The notes under the pieces are model-generated. The model saw only the letters and a list, made by a program, of their open reading frames with translations, was not told the origin of the DNA and searched no databases. 64,000 nucleotides of DNA from Zhaonella formicivorans (lineage in GTDB: Bacteria; Bacillota; DUOV01; Zhaonellaceae). The translations under genes were made by a program, and so were the position numbers. Within the stretch, counting starts at the first letter, position 1. Every line of letters starts with the position of its first letter. The DNA lies in assembly GCF_004353525.1 (NCBI RefSeq), contig NZ_CP085524.1:310001-374000 (forward strand), written 5' to 3'. Shown here piece after piece: positions 7,162-53,597 of this stretch.

Positions 7162-7204
7162 TAAATTAATCTATTAGTATGCTGATAAATAAATACGAAA
7201 GCAT

Positions 7205-7336
7205 CTTGTATATTCCCGGTAATAAGGTCCGGGAGTTTCTACCGGGTAACCGTAAATTGCCCGACTACAAGAATATTTTGCCTCGCGTAGCTTGAAAATT
7301 TCGTGAAGCAACATATTCTTTTAGTCGGTATTTTTA
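7205..7336 (+). promoter_or_regulatory. Purine riboswitch (guanine class) with terminator, predicted ON switch
   Basis: The aptamer (7205-7271) has P1 CTTGTA/TACAAG, P2 CCCGG/CCGGG, the core GTTTCTACC and loop 3 CCGTAAA. The discriminating base in CCGACTAC is C, as in guanine/hypoxanthine/xanthine-type members (adenine types have U). The expression platform is unusual: CCGACTACAAGAATAT, which contains the 3' strand of P1, pairs with ATATTCTT-TTAGTCGG at 7313-7328, followed by TATTTTT. Forming P1 with ligand therefore prevents the terminator. This is the arrangement of the adenine-activated pbuE switch, here with a guanine-class aptamer upstream of purine-degradation genes. Confidence 0.9.
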
Positions 7337-7434
7337 TGGTTACCTATTTTATTTTGTTGTGAAAATCTGAAATTTTAATTAAATCATTTTTGAACAATTA
7401 AAAGCAAGGGTCATTTCAGCATTCGACATCCCTG

Positions 7435-7477
7435 AACCCCACAGTAGTATAAAAAACTAGTTGTGGGGTTTTTATTT
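7435..7477 (+). terminator. Second terminator in the purine operon leader
   Basis: AACCCCACA (7435-7443) pairs with TGTGGGGTT (7462-7470), followed by TTTATTT. It lies downstream of the riboswitch and only about 40 bases before the first gene, so it must be conditional, read through, or preceded by a second promoter. A similar AACCCCA/TGGGGTT hairpin follows the other purine riboswitch (48446-48492). Confidence 0.75.
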
Positions 7478-7515: not shown

Positions 7516-8367
7516 TTGCAGTACACTTTTTACATGCCTAAGACCGTTCGGGAAGCATTGGAAATTTTGGTCCAAGCAGAAGGACCGCTAAAAGTTCTGG
7601 CCGGCGGTACTGACCTGATGCTTGACATCAGGAACAAAAAGTATCAACCCAAAGGGATTGTTGACCTTTCGGGCCTGGAGGAATTAAAGCAGATCACCTT
7701 TGACGACGGTGTGGTGCGCATTGGCAGCATGGTTACTTTTACCCGGCTGGCAAATTCCTCCCTTCTAAAAGAACGGGTTACCGTACTAGCTGAAGCAGCT
7801 TCTGTAGTCGGATCACCCCAAATTCGCAATCAGGGGACAATCGGCGGAAATATTGCCAATGCTTCACCGGCTGCCGACATCGTACCGCCGCTGGTGGCTT
7901 TAGGCGCCGTGGTACAAGTTGAAAGCGCACAAGTAAAGAGGGAGGTGCCGGTGCCGGAAATTTTGGCTGGAGCAGGCAAAAATAACTTGGCTCCTGACGA
8001 GATCATTACCGAAATCAAGTTTCTGCTGCCAGATGAACAGTCAAGAAGTTCTTTTGTGAAATTTGGCCGCAGAAACGCCTTGGCTATTGCCAGGATGAGC
8101 GTAGCAACAGTAATTACCCTTGAAGAGAATTTAATCAAAGAAGCGAGGATTGCCCTAGGTGCAGTGGCTCCCAATCCTTTCCGGGCAACGGGACTGGAAG
8201 AAATGCTTGCCGGCAAGTCCCCAAGTAAGGAAGTGCTGGAGCAAGTAATAGCTGCCTCCAGCCAGGTTGTCAGCGAAAAACTAGGCAACCGTCCGTCTGC
8301 CAAATGGAAAAATGAAGCCATCAAAGGCCTGATGCGGCAGGCTTTGCAAAAACTGAAACTTGTTTAG
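7516..8367 (+). CDS. Xanthine dehydrogenase-type hydroxylase, FAD subunit
   Basis: This is the medium, FAD-binding subunit of a molybdenum hydroxylase; it passes electrons from the iron-sulfur subunit to the acceptor. FAD-binding motifs are visible: VLAGGTDLM near residue 30, and IGGNIANASPAADIVP near residue 115. Length (283 residues) is normal. The TTG start at 7516 lies seven bases after AAAGGGGG. It is the first gene after the purine riboswitch and begins a run of closely spaced genes (7.5-15.7 kb). Purine as substrate is inferred from the riboswitch and neighbours. Confidence 0.93.
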   Translation: MQYTFYMPKTVREALEILVQAEGPLKVLAGGTDLMLDIRNKKYQPKGIVDLSGLEELKQITFDDGVVRIGSMVTFTRLANSSLLKERVTVLAEAASVVGSPQIRNQGTIGGNIANASPAADIVPPLVALGAVVQVESAQVKREVPVPEILAGAGKNNLAPDEIITEIKFLLPDEQSRSSFVKFGRRNALAIARMSVATVITLEENLIKEARIALGAVAPNPFRATGLEEMLAGKSPSKEVLEQVIAASSQVVSEKLGNRPSAKWKNEAIKGLMRQALQKLKLV

Positions 8368-8383
8368 GGAAGGAGGTTAGGAG

Positions 8384-8863
8384 ATGGATAAAGTCAGATT
8401 CAGCGCAGAAATAAACGGTGAGCAGGTTGACCTTCTTATTCCCCAAAACCTCAGGCTAATTGATTTGCTCAGGGATTACCTCCACTTAACAGGGACCAAA
8501 GAGGGCTGTGGCGAAGGGGAATGCGGCGCTTGCACAGTCATAATTGACGGTGAGCCCGTGAACTCCTGCCTCATTTTCGCTCTGCAGGCCAGGGACAAAA
8601 AAATCTTGACAATTGAAGGTATGGGCAGCTTAGAGCAACTTCACCCGCTGCAAACAGCATTTCTCGATTACGGAGCTGTACAGTGCGGTTTTTGTACACC
8701 CGGAATGCTTTTAGCTGCCAAAGCACTGCTCGATAAGAATCCTAACCCTAGCCGGGAAGAAATAAAAACAGCTATCTCAGGAAACCTATGCCGCTGTACC
8801 GGTTACAGCAAGATTGTAGACGCCATTGAGAGCCTTACCGGAAAAGAGGTGAATTCCAAATGA
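8384..8863 (+). CDS. Xanthine dehydrogenase-type hydroxylase, 2Fe-2S subunit
   Basis: The small subunit carries two [2Fe-2S] clusters. The N-terminal plant-ferredoxin type is GCGEGECGACTV plus a later Cys (NSC), and the C-terminal four-helix type is CGFCTPGM with CRCTGY. The 159-residue length is standard. GGAAGGAGG lies before the ATG. The gene's end overlaps the next gene by four bases (ATGA), indicating translational coupling of the subunits. Confidence 0.95.
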   Translation: MDKVRFSAEINGEQVDLLIPQNLRLIDLLRDYLHLTGTKEGCGEGECGACTVIIDGEPVNSCLIFALQARDKKILTIEGMGSLEQLHPLQTAFLDYGAVQCGFCTPGMLLAAKALLDKNPNPSREEIKTAISGNLCRCTGYSKIVDAIESLTGKEVNSK

Positions 8864-10122
8864 AAAAAGCAGTAGGTGTGTCAGCCCGCCGGGTGGAAGG
8901 ACTGGGAAAAGTAACAGGAATGATAAAGTTTCCCGCTGATTATTATGAACCAGGCATGCTTTACGGCAAAACCCTGCGGACCAAAATAGCAAGCGGTCGA
9001 ATTATCAGCATAGATACTTCCAAGGCAGAGGCGCTGCCGGGGGTGCGTAAAGTAGTAACCGCCAAAGATGTGCCGGGGCATAACGGACATGGTGTGCTTT
9101 TCCCTGATGCCCCTGTGTTAGCAGACTCCCGTATTCGTTCCGTAAATGACGCCATTGCCTTGGTGGCAGCTGATACCGAAGAAATTGCTGCCGAAGCTTT
9201 GGAACTGATTAAAGTAGAGTACGAAGAACTGCCAGGGGTTTTCGATCCTAGGGAGGCAATGCAAGAAGATGCCCCTAAAGTGTGGGAGAAGGGCAACATC
9301 CTCTACCACCTGCCGATCAGAAAAGGCGATGTGGAAAAAGGATTTGCCGAAGCCGATGTTATTGTAGAAAATACCTATTCCACCCAGATGGTGGACCATG
9401 CATTTCTCCAGCCGGAAGCGGCTCTTTGTACGATCGATGAGAGAGGCCATTTGGTGCTAAGAGTTGCCACCCAGTACGTCCACTGGGACAGGGTGGAAGT
9501 TGCCAGAGCTTTAGGTTTAAGCGTCAACCAGGTCAGAATAATTTGTACTGCCGTAGGAGGAGCCTTTGGCGGCAGGGAGGATATGACCGTGCAAATCCAC
9601 TGCGCCCTGCTAACCTGGTTAACCAAAAAACCGGTGAAGATGATTTATGACCGGCACGAATCCTTTCACGCCCACTCCAAACGGCACCCCATGTATATGG
9701 AGTATAAAACAGGGGCGAAAAAAGACGGCCGGCTCACAGCCGTAGAAGCACGCATCATAGGCGACAGTGGAGCATACGCCTCTTGGGCCCCCAACATCTT
9801 ACGCAAAGCGGCAGTCCATGCCACCGGGCCTTACCAAGTGCCCAACGTGAAAGTGGATTCCTATGCAGTCTTTACCAATAACCCCTTTACTGGGGCCATG
9901 CGTGGCTTTGGGGCAGCTCAGCCGCCTATAGCCTATGAAGCCCAAATGGATCTGCTGGCTGAAAAACTTGGCTTGCATCCCTTTACAATCAGGTGGCGCA
10001 ACGCTTTTGAGGAAGGTTCCGTTACAGCAACCGGTCAGGTGCTGGAAACAAGCGTAGGTTTAAAGGAAAGCTTACTGGCCGCAGCCAAAGCTTTTGGCTG
10101 GGACGTAGAACAATTAGTGTAA
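8860..10122 (+). CDS. Molybdenum hydroxylase large subunit, N-terminal half
   Basis: The 420 residues equal the first half of a usual XDH Mo subunit: the alpha/beta-hammerhead domain (residues 12-125) and the first Mo-cofactor domain. GGAFGGRE (233-240) and RGFGAAQ (348-354) are clear. Glu240 and Arg348 appear to match the substrate-orienting Glu802 and Arg880 of bovine xanthine oxidase, supporting a purine substrate. The gene ends with a true stop, and the next gene has its own ribosome-binding site, so the split looks natural rather than a frameshift. Nicotinate dehydrogenase of Eubacterium barkeri has a comparable split (NdhL/NdhM). Confidence 0.9.
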   Translation: MKKAVGVSARRVEGLGKVTGMIKFPADYYEPGMLYGKTLRTKIASGRIISIDTSKAEALPGVRKVVTAKDVPGHNGHGVLFPDAPVLADSRIRSVNDAIALVAADTEEIAAEALELIKVEYEELPGVFDPREAMQEDAPKVWEKGNILYHLPIRKGDVEKGFAEADVIVENTYSTQMVDHAFLQPEAALCTIDERGHLVLRVATQYVHWDRVEVARALGLSVNQVRIICTAVGGAFGGREDMTVQIHCALLTWLTKKPVKMIYDRHESFHAHSKRHPMYMEYKTGAKKDGRLTAVEARIIGDSGAYASWAPNILRKAAVHATGPYQVPNVKVDSYAVFTNNPFTGAMRGFGAAQPPIAYEAQMDLLAEKLGLHPFTIRWRNAFEEGSVTATGQVLETSVGLKESLLAAAKAFGWDVEQLV

Positions 10123-10135
10123 GGAGGTGAGTGGA

Positions 10136-11128
10136 ATGAAAAAAAGAGGAATAGGCATGGGCTGCATCTTTTATGGCACAGGTTATGGCAACGGTTTTCC
10201 TGATGTATCTACCGCCTACGTGGAAATACACGATGACGGCAGCGCTTTGGTTATTACCGGAGCAGTGGACTGCGGTCAAGGTTCCACCACCATCCTGGCG
10301 CAAATTGCTGCCGAAGAACTGAGTATCCCTGTAGAAAAAGTTACAGTTACCACTGCCGATACCGATTGTACCCCCGATTCCGGCACTACTGCGGCTACCA
10401 GGCAGACTTATACCTCCGGCAATGCCGTAAGGCTGGCTGCTCAAAAAGCCAAACAAGTGCTCCTTGAATGGGCGGCCAGAGAGCTGGGAGTTAATACAAC
10501 CGAAGGCTTAAGGGTTAATAACGGCATGTTGGAGGTCAAAGGAGATCCGGCAAAAACCGTTCCTTTGGAAGAAATTTGCGCTAAGGCCAGGTTTGCCGGC
10601 AAAAGGCTGATTGGAGAGGCCAGCTTCACGACCCATGCTACCCAAGTCAGCATGGAAAACGGTCAAGGGGCACCTTACTGGCCTTATGCATTCGGAACTC
10701 AGATTGTAGAAGTGGAAGTGGATACGGAAACAGGAAAAGTAGAGATTTTGAAGGTGATAGCAGCCCATGATGTCGGCAAGGCAATTAACCCGGAAAACGT
10801 CAAGGGCCAAATACAGGGCGGAGTAGGGCAAGGAGTTGGTTGGAGTTTATATGAAGAGGTACAACTGAAAGAGGGGCAAATTCTCAACCCATCCATGAGT
10901 TCCTATTTAATTCCCACAGTCCTGGATATGCCGGAAATTGAGCCGGTTATTGTAGAAGCCCATGAACCTAGCGGGCCCTACGGGGCCAAAGGTGTTGGTG
11001 AACCGGCCATGCTGCCCACGGCTCCTGCTGTGTTAAATGCTATTTACAATGCAATAGGTGTCAGGATCAACGATTTGCCTGCCACTCCGGAGAAAGTTTT
11101 AGCCGCAATTAAAGAAGCTGGACTGTAA
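10136..11128 (+). CDS. Molybdenum hydroxylase medium subunit, C-terminal half
   Basis: This 330-residue protein is the second Mo-cofactor domain. It has the CGQGSTT motif near residue 47 and the active-site GAKGVGEPAM, in which Glu289 corresponds to the catalytic base (Glu1261 in bovine XDH). It therefore completes the active site of the preceding subunit. The ATG at 10136 is eight bases after AAGGAGG; the GTG at 10127 overlaps that site. The four products (about 46, 36, 30 and 17 kDa by residue count) mirror the four-subunit nicotinate dehydrogenase. No xdhC-type maturation gene is in the window. Confidence 0.9.
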   Translation: MKKRGIGMGCIFYGTGYGNGFPDVSTAYVEIHDDGSALVITGAVDCGQGSTTILAQIAAEELSIPVEKVTVTTADTDCTPDSGTTAATRQTYTSGNAVRLAAQKAKQVLLEWAARELGVNTTEGLRVNNGMLEVKGDPAKTVPLEEICAKARFAGKRLIGEASFTTHATQVSMENGQGAPYWPYAFGTQIVEVEVDTETGKVEILKVIAAHDVGKAINPENVKGQIQGGVGQGVGWSLYEEVQLKEGQILNPSMSSYLIPTVLDMPEIEPVIVEAHEPSGPYGAKGVGEPAMLPTAPAVLNAIYNAIGVRINDLPATPEKVLAAIKEAGL

Positions 11129-11210
11129 GCAAGGGTATTCTAATAGTATCAAGGTGACCGCAACTATATTAAGCAGGATCTTATTATAAAATTTACAAGG
11201 AGTGACTACA

Positions 11211-12575
11211 TTGGCTAAACCACAATTGGCATATAACGTCGCAGCTGATGCTGAGAAAGGTTTGTTGGAACGGTTATTCAGGCTCAGGGAAAAGGGTACT
11301 ACAGCAAAGACTGAAATTTTAGCCGGATTTACTACTTTTATTACCATGGCCTATATTCTTTTTGTAAACCCCCAGATTTTAAGTGAAACGGGCATACCCT
11401 TTAACGCAGCCTTAGCGGCCACCGCTATCGTGTCTGCTTTTGCCACCTTGCTCATGGGTTTGTATGCAAACTATCCTATTGCCGTTGCTCCAGGTATGGG
11501 TTTAAATGCTTTCTTCACGTACACCGTGGTCCTGACCATGGGCCTTTCCTGGCAGACCGCTTTAGGAGCAGTTTTTGTTTCCGGTATGGTTTTCATTATC
11601 CTTACGGTCACTAAAGCACGCCAGTTGATTATTGAGGCTGTTCCCCCTGTTTTAAAATATTCCATTGGGGTTGGTATCGGTTTATTCATCGCTTTTATCG
11701 GACTTAAAAACGCAGCAATAGTTGTAGCAAGCCCCGCTACCTATGTTACGTTGGGCAACATGAAGGACCCGGGTGTTATCTTGGCAATTATCGGCCTGGT
11801 TATAACTGCCTTCTTAATGGCCAGACAGGTTAAAGGTGCCTTGTTAATCGGAATGCTTTCTACGACTATTATCGGCATGTTCATGGGAGTAACCAAAGTA
11901 CCAACAGGATTAAGCGATATTGTGACTTTAGTGCCACCTAGCCCGGCGGCTACTTTCCTCAAGCTTGACATCATGGGAGCCGTTAAGTATGGTTTAGTAT
12001 CCATTATTTTCTCCATAACTATTGTTGACCTTTTCGATAATATCGGGACCTTAATCGGTGTTTCCCGGAAGGCAGGACTGCTGGACAAAGACGGTCGTTT
12101 ACCGGGGATTGAAAGGGCTCTGGTAGCCGATTCCGTAGGTGCCACCGTAGGTTCCTTGGTAGGTACAAGTACAGTTACCTCGTATGTAGAGAGCGCTGCC
12201 GGTGTTGCTGCCGGTGGTAAAACCGGATTGACCGCAGTAGTGGTAGGTTTGCTCTTCCTGGTATCCTTGTTCTTTGCACCCCTGGCGCTCCTGGTGCCGT
12301 CTCAGGCGACCGCACCCATTCTGATTATTGTCGGTGTATTGATGATGGCGGAGGTAGTGCATATTAAATTTGATGATTTTACTGAAGCTCTACCCGCTTT
12401 TCTGACTATCGTTTTAATGCCTTTGACTTTCAGTATTGCTCAGGGCTTGTCTTTCGGCTTCATGTCCTATACCATAATTAAGGCCATGACCGGAAAGTTT
12501 AAAGAAATTCACCCTGTAATGTATGTGTTAACAGTATTGTTTATCTTGCATTTTGTATTTGGCATAGCAGAATAA
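11211..12575 (+). CDS. NCS2-family purine permease (AzgA/PbuG type)
   Basis: A multi-spanning transporter of the COG2252 branch, which takes up adenine, guanine or hypoxanthine with protons. Typical stretches are EILAGFTTFITMAYILFVNP, APGMGLNAFF and the later DNIGTLIGV and GTSTVTSYVESAAGV. Length (454 residues) fits the family. I prefer TTG 11211, nine bases after AAGGAG; the GTG at 11202 is on top of the ribosome-binding site. It follows the hydroxylase genes in the riboswitch-controlled operon and probably imports the substrate. Confidence 0.92.
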   Translation: MAKPQLAYNVAADAEKGLLERLFRLREKGTTAKTEILAGFTTFITMAYILFVNPQILSETGIPFNAALAATAIVSAFATLLMGLYANYPIAVAPGMGLNAFFTYTVVLTMGLSWQTALGAVFVSGMVFIILTVTKARQLIIEAVPPVLKYSIGVGIGLFIAFIGLKNAAIVVASPATYVTLGNMKDPGVILAIIGLVITAFLMARQVKGALLIGMLSTTIIGMFMGVTKVPTGLSDIVTLVPPSPAATFLKLDIMGAVKYGLVSIIFSITIVDLFDNIGTLIGVSRKAGLLDKDGRLPGIERALVADSVGATVGSLVGTSTVTSYVESAAGVAAGGKTGLTAVVVGLLFLVSLFFAPLALLVPSQATAPILIIVGVLMMAEVVHIKFDDFTEALPAFLTIVLMPLTFSIAQGLSFGFMSYTIIKAMTGKFKEIHPVMYVLTVLFILHFVFGIAE

Positions 12576-12597
12576 AAGGATTCGTTTCCAAACAAAA

Positions 12598-12627
12598 TTG
12601 CTCCCGGGGAAGTATTTCCGGGAGCAA
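12598..12627 (+). other. Intercistronic hairpin
   Basis: TTGCTCCCGG pairs perfectly with CCGGGAGCAA (10 bp) between the permease and amidohydrolase genes. No T-tract follows, so it is more likely an mRNA-processing or stability element than a terminator. Confidence 0.5.
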
Positions 12628-12650
12628 TCTGAACGTGTAGGAGGCTAATT

Positions 12651-13982
12651 ATGAGCATATTAATCAAAAACGCCACTATAGTTACCATGAATCAAGAGCG
12701 CGAGATTGTTCAAGGCAATATTTTGCTGGAAGGTGACCGTATTGTTGCGATTGGTCAAACCAGAGAAGAGGCTGACCGGGTTATTGATGCCACAGGCAAG
12801 GTGGTTATTCCCGGTTTAATCCAGAGCCACGTTCACCTCTGCCAGACTCTGTTCAGAGGCCAGGCCGATGATTTGGAGCTCCTGGATTGGTTGAAGCTGC
12901 GCATTTGGCCGCTGGAAGGCTGCCATGATCCCGAATCCCTTTACTACTCGGCAATGCTGGGGTGTGGGGAGCTTTTTAAAGGCGGTACAACGGCAATTAT
13001 CGATATGGAAACCGTTAACCATACCGAGGTAGCTTTAGAGGCAATCTTTAAAAATGGCATGCGGGCTGTAACCGGAAAATGCATGATGGATTACGGGGAT
13101 GATGTTCCTGAGAGTTTAATGGAGGACACTGACCGCTCAATTCAAGAGAGTGTGGACCTGTTGGAAAAATGGCATGGGAAAGGTAACGGACGGATTCAGT
13201 ACGCTTTTACACCTCGCTTTGTAGTCTCCTGTACCGAACGCTTGTTAGTTGAAGTTAGGGATCTGGCTCAGAAGTACAATGTGAGGGTGCATACCCATGC
13301 TTCGGAAAACCGTGGTGAAATTGAGCTGGTTCAGCAAGACCGTGGCATGCGTAATGTGGTTTACCTGGAAAAAATCGGCTTAGCCGGGCCAAACTTAGTT
13401 TTGGCGCATTGTATTTGGTTGGATGAACAGGAAATGGAGATTCTTGTCCAATCCGGAACTAAGATTGCTCACTGTCCTTCCAGCAACTTGAAGCTGGCTT
13501 CGGGCATTGCTAAGATTCCCGAACTTATTTCCAAAGGCGCTCATGTCTCCATAGGAGCCGACGGTGCGCCGTGCAACAACAATCTGGACCAGTTCGTTGA
13601 AATGCGCCTGGCAGCTTTGATTCAGAAGCCTATCTACGGTCCTACTGTTATGCCGGCGGAACAGGTCTTTGAACTGGCTACAATCGGCGGTGCTAAAGCT
13701 ATGGGTCTTGAAAATGAAATCGGCTCTTTGGAAGTGGGCAAGAAAGCTGACTTAGCTATTGTAGATCTAAGCGGACTCCATACCAACCCGCTGATGGGTA
13801 AGGTCAGCATATACTCCCAGCTGGTTTATCAGGCAAAAAGCAGCGATGTACTCTATACAATTGTTGATGGACAAATCGTACTGGACAACCGTGTTTTGAC
13901 CACGATCGACGAGGAAGAAGTAAAAGAAAAATGCAATGAAGCAATTGTGCGAGTCGCCAGGAGGGCTGGGGTAATAAGCTAA
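12651..13982 (+). CDS. Amidohydrolase, probable guanine or related purine deaminase
   Basis: A 443-residue metal-dependent hydrolase of the AtzA/TrzF/guanine-deaminase type. Metal ligands are visible: SHVHL (HxH, near residue 60), THASE, AHC, and the Asp in GADGAPCNN. The C-terminus has the usual EIGSLEVGKKADLAIVD. Homologues deaminate guanine, S-adenosylhomocysteine/MTA or 5'-deoxyadenosine. Its place between a purine permease and adenine deaminase favours guanine or another purine, giving xanthine for the hydroxylase. AGGAGG precedes the ATG. Substrate is inferred from context only. Confidence 0.75.
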   Translation: MSILIKNATIVTMNQEREIVQGNILLEGDRIVAIGQTREEADRVIDATGKVVIPGLIQSHVHLCQTLFRGQADDLELLDWLKLRIWPLEGCHDPESLYYSAMLGCGELFKGGTTAIIDMETVNHTEVALEAIFKNGMRAVTGKCMMDYGDDVPESLMEDTDRSIQESVDLLEKWHGKGNGRIQYAFTPRFVVSCTERLLVEVRDLAQKYNVRVHTHASENRGEIELVQQDRGMRNVVYLEKIGLAGPNLVLAHCIWLDEQEMEILVQSGTKIAHCPSSNLKLASGIAKIPELISKGAHVSIGADGAPCNNNLDQFVEMRLAALIQKPIYGPTVMPAEQVFELATIGGAKAMGLENEIGSLEVGKKADLAIVDLSGLHTNPLMGKVSIYSQLVYQAKSSDVLYTIVDGQIVLDNRVLTTIDEEEVKEKCNEAIVRVARRAGVIS

Positions 13983-13996
13983 AGGGGGGATTGCTA

Positions 13997-15709
13997 GTGG
14001 TAGACAGGATTGACCTGGTGCCTTTCAGTCGGGGAAAAAAGAAGCCGGAACTTGTTTTAAAGAATGCCCGGGTAATCAACGTATTTTCTGCAGAAATTTA
14101 TGAAGCTGACGTAGCAATCACCGGAAACTATATTGTAGGCATTGGCGATTATCAAGGAGAACAGGAAGTCGACGTGGCCGGGAAACTTTTAAGCCCTGGA
14201 TTTATTGACGGCCATGTGCACATCGAAAGCTCCATGGTTTCTCCGGGGGAATTTGCCAGGGCGGTGGTCCCCCATGGCACTACCACTGTGATAGTTGATC
14301 CTCATGAAATTGCCAATGTGGCGGGAACGGCCGGCATTTCCTATATGCTTCAAGCCAGTGAAGGATTGCCGCTGGATGTCTACCTGATGCTGCCTTCCTG
14401 TGTTCCTGCCACTGCTCTGGAAAACTCGGGCGCCAAGCTTCTGGCTGCGGATCTAGCACCATTCCTAGACAATCCTAGGGTGTTAGGTTTGGGAGAAGTG
14501 ATGAACTACCCCGGCGTTCTGGGTGGGGACCCTGAGCTGCAGGAAAAGTTAAGATTATGCGCGGGTAAAATCATCGATGGCCATGCCCCTGGTTTAAGCG
14601 GGAAGGAGTTGGCGGCTTATATAGCGGCAGGTATCACTTCAGATCACGAATGTACTACCGTGGAGGAAGCTCTCGAAAGGCTTCGCCTTGGAATGTACAT
14701 CATGTTGCGGGAAGGTTCAGCTACCAAGAATTTGCTGGACCTTTTGCCCTTGGTAAATAAAAACAACTCCCGCCGTTTCCTCTTTGTTACCGATGACCGC
14801 CATCCCCAGGACCTCCTGACCGAAGGGCACATCGACCATCTGGTCAGGCTTAGTGTTCAGGCAGGAATCGACCTGGTAACTGCCGTACAGATGGCTTCCC
14901 TCAATGCTGCCGAGTACTTCGGTCTAAAAGGTCGGGGGGCTATTGCACCTGGCTACCGGGCAGATCTGTTGGTGCTCGACACTGATACGTTGGAGGTTGA
15001 AGCAGTTTACAAGCAGGGAAAACTGGTTGCTAAAAATGGTAATGCCTTGTTTGCAGTAAGAGGGGAACAATATCCGGAAGTAATGAATACTGTGCACCTG
15101 GCTCCTTTAACACCCGATAAACTGCAAATCCCGGCAGATTCACCTACTGCCCGGGTAATTGAATTAGTCCCCCACAAAATAGTGACAAGAGCAGCGCTTC
15201 AGGAAGTGCCGGTCCAGGAAGGGTACTATCAGACCAGCAGTGAAAAAGATATTCTGAAGATGGCGGTGATGGAGCGACATAAGTGCAAGGGCAACGTGGG
15301 TGTGGCGCTGGTTAAAAATTTCGGCCTGAAGAAAGGGGCCATAGCTTCTTCGGTAGCTCATGATTCCCACAATATCGTGGCCATTGGCAAAGATGATGCC
15401 GATATTATCTTGGCGGCAGAGGAAATTGTGAAAATGCAGGGTGGTATTGCCATAGCCTGCGAAGGTATGATTCTAGGCTCTCTCCCCTTACCCATCGGTG
15501 GCCTGATGTCCGACCGGACCTTAGCGGAAGTAAGAGATAAGTTAGGTGAGCTCCACCACCTGGCTGCTGAGCTTGGAGTGAAAGATGGGCATGACCCTTT
15601 CATGACTCTGGCATTTATGAGTTTGCCTGTGATTCCTGAGCTGAAGCTTACGGATTTGGGTTTAGTTGATGTAGCGCAGTTTAAAGTTGTACCAGTAGCT
15701 TATAGATGA
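13997..15709 (+). CDS. ade: Adenine deaminase
   Basis: Ade converts adenine to hypoxanthine and ammonia using a binuclear metal centre. The protein has FIDGHVHIESSM (HxH ligands), DPHEIANV, and the family's conserved C-terminal half with AHDSHNI and GGIAIACEG. About 570 residues is normal. The GTG at 13997 is seven bases after AAAGGGGGG; the TTG at 13991 is too close. It completes the funnel of the operon: adenine to hypoxanthine and guanine to xanthine, both substrates for the Mo hydroxylase. Confidence 0.95.
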   Translation: MVDRIDLVPFSRGKKKPELVLKNARVINVFSAEIYEADVAITGNYIVGIGDYQGEQEVDVAGKLLSPGFIDGHVHIESSMVSPGEFARAVVPHGTTTVIVDPHEIANVAGTAGISYMLQASEGLPLDVYLMLPSCVPATALENSGAKLLAADLAPFLDNPRVLGLGEVMNYPGVLGGDPELQEKLRLCAGKIIDGHAPGLSGKELAAYIAAGITSDHECTTVEEALERLRLGMYIMLREGSATKNLLDLLPLVNKNNSRRFLFVTDDRHPQDLLTEGHIDHLVRLSVQAGIDLVTAVQMASLNAAEYFGLKGRGAIAPGYRADLLVLDTDTLEVEAVYKQGKLVAKNGNALFAVRGEQYPEVMNTVHLAPLTPDKLQIPADSPTARVIELVPHKIVTRAALQEVPVQEGYYQTSSEKDILKMAVMERHKCKGNVGVALVKNFGLKKGAIASSVAHDSHNIVAIGKDDADIILAAEEIVKMQGGIAIACEGMILGSLPLPIGGLMSDRTLAEVRDKLGELHHLAAELGVKDGHDPFMTLAFMSLPVIPELKLTDLGLVDVAQFKVVPVAYR

Positions 15710-47940: not shown

Positions 47941-48243
47941 TACGTTATCTTTCGACTTTTTTTCTTAAGATTATAATATAACATTTTAAAAATATTGCTT
48001 ACCCGATTAGGGAACATTGATAAATAAGTTTTAATTGTCTATGAATATTTTGCTGTGTTTGCAGGAATTTTTCAAAAAATGTGGAATAAATTTTTCTAAG
48101 TAAGGTAAGAAGATTTGCAGGTTGTTAAAACAATTAATTGGTTAAGTTAAAGTTTGATTGCTTTTGGAACATCAAAAAATTAAAGTGTGAAGTTTATACT
48201 ACATTGCACTTAATTGTAAAAGCAGAAAACAGGGAAAACTTAT

Positions 48244-48375
48244 CTTGTATAATCTCGGTAATATGGTCCGAGAGTCTCTACCAGGTAACCGTAAATTGCC
48301 CGACTACAAGAATGTTTTGCTGTTGATATTTTTTGCTCATTTCGACAGCAAGACTATTCTTGTAGTTGGATTTTG
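48244..48375 (+). promoter_or_regulatory. Purine riboswitch (guanine class), second copy
   Basis: The aptamer (48244-48310) has CTTGTA/TACAAG as P1, CTCGG/CCGAG as P2, the core GTCTCTACC and loop CCGTAAA; the discriminating base (CCGACTAC) is C. The 3' strand of P1 is part of a very long alternative hairpin: CCGACTACAAGAAT pairs with ATTCTTGTAGTTGG (48356-48369), extended by GTTTTGCTGTTGA/TCGACAGCAAGAC, then ATTTTG. As at 7205, ligand binding should prevent the hairpin. The T-tract is short, so termination may be partial. Bases 47941-48243 show no gene and no clear promoter. Confidence 0.88.
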
Positions 48376-48445
48376 CGGCTCCCGGTTTTATTGTTATTGA
48401 AAAAAGCAAAAAATAAATATTAAGGGTAAACTCAGCCTAAATTGC

Positions 48446-48492
48446 AACAAACCCCAGTGAAACTTATGGTTTTTCATGGGGTTTGTTGTTTT
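48446..48492 (+). terminator. Second terminator in the importer 2 leader
   Basis: AACAAACCCCA (48446-48456) pairs with TGGGGTTTGTT (48477-48487), followed by GTTTT. Together with the equivalent AACCCCA/TGGGGTT hairpin at 7435-7477 it shows a shared two-stage leader. An AAGGAGGT stretch at 48493-48500 has no usable start codon behind it. Confidence 0.7.
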
Positions 48493-48622
48493 AAGGAGGT
48501 GAAACCTAAAGTTTTTGCTTATAAACTTAAAGCTGCCATAATTAAAAAAAAGGGGGGGTAACTCACTGAAAATGATCTAGGTTTTCTGTAAGATATTTAC
48601 TAATTTCAGGGAGGTTATCTTA

Positions 48623-53369: not shown

Positions 53370-53447
53370 AAACCAATTTTAGGAAAAAAATAGCTTGCAT
53401 TTTCTAAGAAGGCAAAATAAAATATAGATAAGCAACTGAATAGTATA

Positions 53448-53597
53448 CCGCTAGGGGTGTCGGTAGCCCGGCTGAGAGAAAGGCGCGATGAAGCCTTTTA
53501 ACCCTTGAACCTGATCTGGATCATACCAGCGTAGGGAAGTGACATACTTGTTAAGTTAAAGCCGCATCCAAATCTCGCTGGATGGGGCTTTTTATTT
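53448..53597 (+). promoter_or_regulatory. TPP riboswitch (THI box) with terminator
   Basis: The aptamer (53448-53543) contains CTAGGGGTG, CGGCTGAGA, ACCCTTGAACCTGATCTGG and ATACCAGCGTAGGGAAGTG, all hallmarks of the thiamine pyrophosphate aptamer. A terminator follows (AAAGCCGCATCCA / TGGATGGGGCTTT, then TTATTTT, 53558-53597). TPP binding should end transcription before the thi genes, the usual OFF switch. Confidence 0.96.

Follow-up and report, generated by a model that had tools for sequence, protein, structure and literature searches.

The leader upstream of the xanthine dehydrogenase (XDH) operon of Zhaonella formicivorans is probably a two-stage transcription attenuator, in which a guanine-type purine riboswitch (RS1) with its terminator, T1, is followed by a short distal element that overlaps a second terminator, T2. 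We infer the direction of control at both stages, the ligand and the regulation of the second stage from sequence; what the in silico analysis shows is how the leader is built, that its alternative pairings exclude each other, that both parts recur and which genes accompany them. Coordinates given without a locus or contig label refer to the window, that is, the whole 64,000-nucleotide stretch of DNA analysed here, and all features placed in it lie on the forward strand. In the proposed mechanism, the nascent 3′ arm of T1 would invade P1 and P3 of the ligand-free aptamer and transcription would terminate; binding of guanine, or of hypoxanthine or xanthine at higher concentration, would let the aptamer keep the shared strand and allow read-through. 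About 70 nt further on in the RS1 leader, a GGGU may pair with an ACCC stretch that serves as the T2 5′ arm. Whether polymerase passes this second stage would probably depend on a further input, either a protein or a small molecule, that stabilises the upstream pairing or masks the CCC. Expression of the operon would then require this input and the substrate purine together, an AND-like response. A first-pass annotation of the same DNA, which saw here a guanine-class ON switch for purine degradation, is partly supported: its direction appears right, the switch is less exceptional than it was thought to be, and the second attenuator, which is the more novel lead of the two, was missed.

The RS1 aptamer, terminator T1 and the genes behind them

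RS1 matches the Rfam Purine family (RF00167) at 7186–7287 with 88.9 bits (E = 7e-15; gathering threshold, 37). From the Rfam alignment and the sequence, its paired core occupies 7203–7273, with P1 formed by 7203–7210 and 7266–7273, P2 by 7214–7220 and 7228–7234, and P3 by 7243–7249 and 7257–7263. The core bases U22, U51 and C74 are retained (T at 7211, T at 7240 and C at 7265, respectively), and J2/3 (8 nt) and J3/1 (2 nt) have standard lengths without insertions. By these features the aptamer, which the first-pass annotation had called guanine-class, is of the guanine-I class, and its predicted ligand is guanine, hypoxanthine or xanthine. Guanine-II and xanthine-II, for which ON control has been predicted and the latter of which occurs at XDH and allantoinase genes, carry insertions in J2/3 and J3/1, and xanthine-II also has U51G (PMC9295807). 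RS1 shares the predicted ON layout with both but neither identity fits: U51 is kept and the junction insertions of xanthine-II are absent, as are the one-nucleotide J2/3 insertion and the J3/1 insertion of guanine-II.

Terminator T1 spans 7244–7358, as defined by folding and by comparison of its pairing with shuffled sequences. Its 5′ arm (7244–7277) overlaps P3, J3/1 and the 3′ strand of P1, its 3′ arm lies at 7313–7345, and U-runs are found at about 7330–7336 and 7346–7358. That the 3′ strand of P1 doubles as the 5′ arm of a terminator had already been noticed, and this is borne out: 7262–7277 (CCGACTACAAGAATAT) pairs with 7313–7328 (ATATTCTTTTAGTCGG) in 15 of 16 positions, and the duplex between the strand running from P3 to the 3′ side of P1 and the downstream strand reaches −36.7 kcal/mol, against −14.8 ± 3.0 kcal/mol for shuffled sequences. 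None of 2000 shuffles of the downstream strand, with dinucleotide content kept, was as strong. The hairpin is larger than previously described, however, since its 3′ arm also pairs with P3/L3 (7333–7345 with 7244–7256); the pairing at 7313–7328 thus stands, but T1 continues beyond 7328 to 7345, with the second U-rich run ending at 7358. Folding at increasing transcript length in silico keeps P1 closed up to about 113 nt and has T1 replace it from about 119 nt.

The adenine switch of B. subtilis pbuE is an ON platform acting on transcription, in which the 5′ arm of the terminator overlaps the 3′ side of the aptamer and ligand blocks termination. T1 has the same layout, including the U-run that follows, and by analogy the RS1 platform would work like pbuE, from which it differs in having C74 (guanine-type) rather than U74, in the genes it precedes and in the second attenuator behind it. 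Because the 3′ part of the RS1 aptamer is itself the T1 5′ arm, ligand should prevent termination, and the assignment of RS1 as an ON switch above a purine-degradation operon is well supported by its anatomy and by comparison. RS1 resembles guanine-I riboswitches such as B. subtilis xpt-pbuX in aptamer fold, in U22, U51 and C74 and in its standard junctions. The xpt-type platforms, on the other hand, are OFF switches, whereas in RS1 an aptamer strand serves directly as the terminator 5′ arm and the target is, unlike theirs, purine degradation.

It is highly improbable that RS1 is instead an ordinary OFF switch, in which ligand promotes termination by way of an unrecognised antiterminator. Most guanine-type switches in our survey (below) do have a non-ON layout, and the four guanine-type switches of C. 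difficile are OFF (PMC11477304). However, the 3′ strand of P1 has strong partners only in the P1 5′ strand and the T1 3′ arm, the latter leading into the U-runs. Apart from the aptamer itself, folding and pairing searches of the RS1 leader found no antiterminator, and in particular none pairing with the 5′ arm of the hairpin, which the first-pass annotation had named as an observation that would speak against its reading.

The genes that RS1 would control lie at 7516–15709; they were identified from open reading frames (ORFs), Pfam and NCBIfam, and are taken as an operon from their spacing. They encode XdhB (7516–8367), XdhC (8384–8863), XdhA in two parts (8860–10122 and 10127–11128), an NCS2-type permease (11202–12575), a deoxyadenosine/guanine-deaminase-like protein (12651–13982, above cutoff for 5′-deoxyadenosine deaminase) and adenine deaminase (13991–15709). 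The two adjacent XdhA ORFs (about 420 and 333 aa, 8860–11128) have a counterpart in the sister genus (genome G001; L252, 2563–4820), and behind the riboswitches of family f14, too, the first ORF has a comparable length (about 427 aa); the arrangement is a conserved split and not a sequencing error.

An Rfam search of the complete genome (G000; 3.31 Mb, one contig) returned three purine aptamers in all, namely RS1, RS2 and RS3. RS2, also of guanine type, occupies 48242–48313 (87.0 bits, match at 48225–48326) and lies upstream of an operon for a BMP-type (PnrA-like) nucleoside transporter (Pfam Bmp). Its T1, again in ON layout by folding, spans 48303–48388 with the 3′ arm at about 48354–48380, and is followed at 48422–48495 by a distal element (48422–48457), located by pattern and covariance model, and its T2 (about 48444–48495). 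RS3 (G000:C1:554986, locus L003) precedes another XdhA. The shuffle control gave 0/2000 for the T1 pairing of RS2 and of each of two leaders in the sister genus, and a weaker 9/2000 for RS3. The window also holds an ordinary TPP riboswitch (53443–53554), upstream of thiG/thiH/thiE-like genes.

ON layouts across the phylum

The usual account of guanine-type switches is that they repress purine synthesis and salvage. We searched 249 genomes of the phylum with RF00167 and scored 140 of the listed regions, calling a leader ON when the terminator hairpin begins in P3, pairs with at least five of the P1 3′ bases and is followed by a U-run. By this rule, 19 of about 130 C74 leaders are ON and most guanine-type switches are not. 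XDH genes lie behind 10 of these 19 leaders versus 5 of the 111 others (Fisher p = 7e-7), a value that includes the family in which the hypothesis arose; the association gives p = 2.6e-5 without that family and 2e-4 with families collapsed. All of these values come from heuristic scoring of many related genomes under a terminator rule fixed after the first examples had been seen. On visual inspection, L299, L301, L305 and L344, four of the five XDH leaders that the rule does not call ON, share the ON design, which brings the count to 14 of 15 XDH leaders, and the remaining one (L065) is a weak XDH match. The ON leaders with XDH genes are spread over five families (f1, f14, f34, f38 and f74). 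Two U74 leaders, one before an adenine deaminase and the other before an MFS transporter, likewise qualify, in line with what adenine ON switches should show. Four further leaders came near to ON in another scan; by eye, L097, L098 and L077 are OFF-like with an independent terminator, and L100 is ambiguous.

The survey indicates that, where XDH genes follow, the same guanine-type aptamer routinely takes an activating arrangement; the direction of the switch thus appears to go with gene function, the aptamer itself remaining unchanged. The first-pass annotation had singled out a guanine- or xanthine-triggered ON switch above XDH genes as noteworthy, and this part of its claim is weakened, because the layout recurs in at least five families and, as an ON layout for guanine-type switches, has already been predicted in print for guanine-II and xanthine-II (PMC9295807); the layout itself is thus not unique to RS1. 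A literature search of open-access papers found no guanine-I ON switch over XDH. Of 80 loci with XdhB relatives from other organisms, 17 were searched, and among these a purine leader occurs at the sister-genus locus only. Four leaders of family f14 (L112, L303, L307 and L330) are very compact, ON and guanine-type, with A73G and a terminator about 40 nt past C74, and immediately precede an XdhA ORF.

The distal element and terminator T2

The copy of the distal element behind RS1, AAGGGUCAUUUCAG...GAACCCC, lies at 7406–7442 and was located by pattern and covariance-model matches and an alignment of 11 copies. Its GGGU (7408–7411) is able to pair with ACCC (7436–7439), and the ACCCC of the element begins the 5′ arm of T2 (7434–7475; about −19 kcal/mol by folding, then a U-run), the second attenuator spanning 7406–7475. 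The consensus reads AGGGU-NA-..CA..-GA(A/G)CCC, the CCC being the T2 5′ arm. Some 30–120 nt past T1, all three riboswitch leaders of the genome carry AAGGGU-NA-..CAG..-AACCCCA and then T2, an intrinsic terminator with the CCCC as 5′ arm; a strict form of the pattern has just three matches genome-wide, one downstream of each riboswitch. A covariance model built from four copies found standalone XDH leaders in both genera. L202 (xdhA, sister genus) was the best further match there at E = 0.33, and L208 (Se-dependent XDH, own genome) was fourth among the further matches there at E = 2.3; despite their weak scores we regard both as convincing, because a terminator and an XDH gene lie behind each. 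An enlarged model added the Se-XDH and YgeY leaders, and scanning the fetched regions with the pattern contributed one before a second BMP operon. A further copy sits just behind that BMP gene. The total is seven copies in the own genome and four in the sister genus, all at purine-catabolism or uptake genes and several without a riboswitch; this bacterium thus places the second element before other purine-degradation and purine-uptake genes too. The final model was derived from these copies; run on the own genome, it returns at E ≤ 3 the seven purine-gene copies and nothing else. A further match of the final model in the sister genome lies at G001:C191:8893–8933 (26.3 bits).

The spacing from GGG to CCC is 28–29 nt in 9 of the 11 copies, and GGGU can pair with RCCC in every one. 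The T2 arms vary among copies, each with its own complement, and T2 of the sister-genus xdhB copy is weak (−4.3 kcal/mol). None of the 11 copies has a two-sided compensatory change in GGGU/RCCC, and the antiterminator reading is therefore put forward as a hypothesis. For the same reason, and because copies are known from no more than two genera, the second stage may be unregulated. Only the guanine-type ON switch would then be regulatory, T2 would lower expression as a fixed, leaky terminator, and AGGGU would be incidental or would affect mRNA stability. The folding and shuffle evidence for T1 stands without any second stage, and a weakly conserved loop, together with a GGGU/RCCC pairing that lacks two-sided covariation, agrees with this simpler account. 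We nevertheless consider it rather unlikely, as AGGGU recurs at constant spacing in 11 purine-gene leaders of two genera, several of them without a riboswitch, and the own genome has no other copies of the element.

Apparently, the distal element is an RNA stop-or-go element that has not been described. Rfam searched at a permissive E-value gave no credible family match. Its models, run over 299 genomes of the phylum, otherwise matched coding sequence or sites without a fitting terminator, and a pattern search over 398 genomes returned two true hairpins outside the family (G130 and G095), which are ordinary-looking terminators unrelated to purine genes; neither search yielded a convincing copy outside the own family. 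Among 39 searched loci of XdhB relatives, the element is absent except at the sister-genus locus L119. It resembles T-boxes and other terminator-competing antiterminators in that a short strand starting with AGGGU would compete for the terminator 5′ arm. The T-box consensus is AGGGUGGNACCRCG with a UGGN bulge; in all 11 copies of the distal element, on the other hand, AGGGU is followed by NA...CA without UGGN, and the element has neither a specifier region nor an Rfam match, and a T-box leader was rejected. A BglG/LicT-type site was set aside because the inner stem of the RS1 copy is not conserved in the other copies. The NMT1 (xanthine-I) riboswitch was also rejected, there being no Rfam match; that class is restricted to Proteobacteria and acts as a translational OFF switch (PMC7373994). 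The tandem guanine/PRPP riboswitch (PMC5912903, PMC9481103) likewise joins two sensing parts in a logic gate, but the RS1 leader differs in having a terminator per stage, in using guanine as a predicted ON signal and in a second part that is not a known aptamer.

In its fullest form, our proposal is that the distal element represents a new class of regulatory RNA, either a small-molecule sensor or the target of a dedicated RNA-binding protein, which would mediate antitermination across a purine/uric-acid degradation regulon and which, stacked behind the guanine ON switch, would form a two-input gate. We hold this to be a serious possibility that falls a little short of probable. If regulated, the element would represent a new control over the anaerobic breakdown of purines and uric acid, and its eleven copies are ready-made test constructs.

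A candidate second-stage factor and the uric-acid-type cluster

It is conceivable, though decidedly unlikely, that a dedicated RNA-binding protein operates the second stage, perhaps a Com-like zinc-ribbon protein whose gene lies upstream of the element copy at ygeY. Com of the phage type recognises RNA hairpins through motifs of the form GAG(N)2CC (PMC6483171), and GA(A/G)NNCC fits 6 of the 11 element copies, but this fit was noticed afterwards and fails in the other five. A Com-like ORF lies directly upstream of the ygeY copy in both G000 and G001, a second one lies beside another XDH operon, and G002, which lacks the element, also lacks the protein; the comparison comprises three genomes of the family, however, and the Pfam score of 20.6 is under the curated cutoff of 22.9. 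The Com-like protein is a speculative candidate, but a testable one. The ORF at L247 4547–4720 is flanked by a GntR regulator gene and ygeY, and its stop codon overlaps the element copy; that at L291 1474–1668 (minus strand) adjoins the other XDH operon.

The ygeY copy belongs to a uric-acid-type cluster (L246–L247, G000:C1:494900–508300) that encodes Se-dependent XDH, SsnA, GntR, YgeY, a carbamoyltransferase, YgfK, carbamate kinase and an 8-oxoguanine deaminase-like protein. SsnA, YgeY, YgfK and Se-XDH belong to protein families of the pathway that degrades uric acid reductively (PMC12507026). Two standalone copies of the element are immediately preceded by a shared stretch, ACATCYAGACAACT (at 1480–1500 in L208 and just before the copy in L236), that resembles a GntR-type operator.
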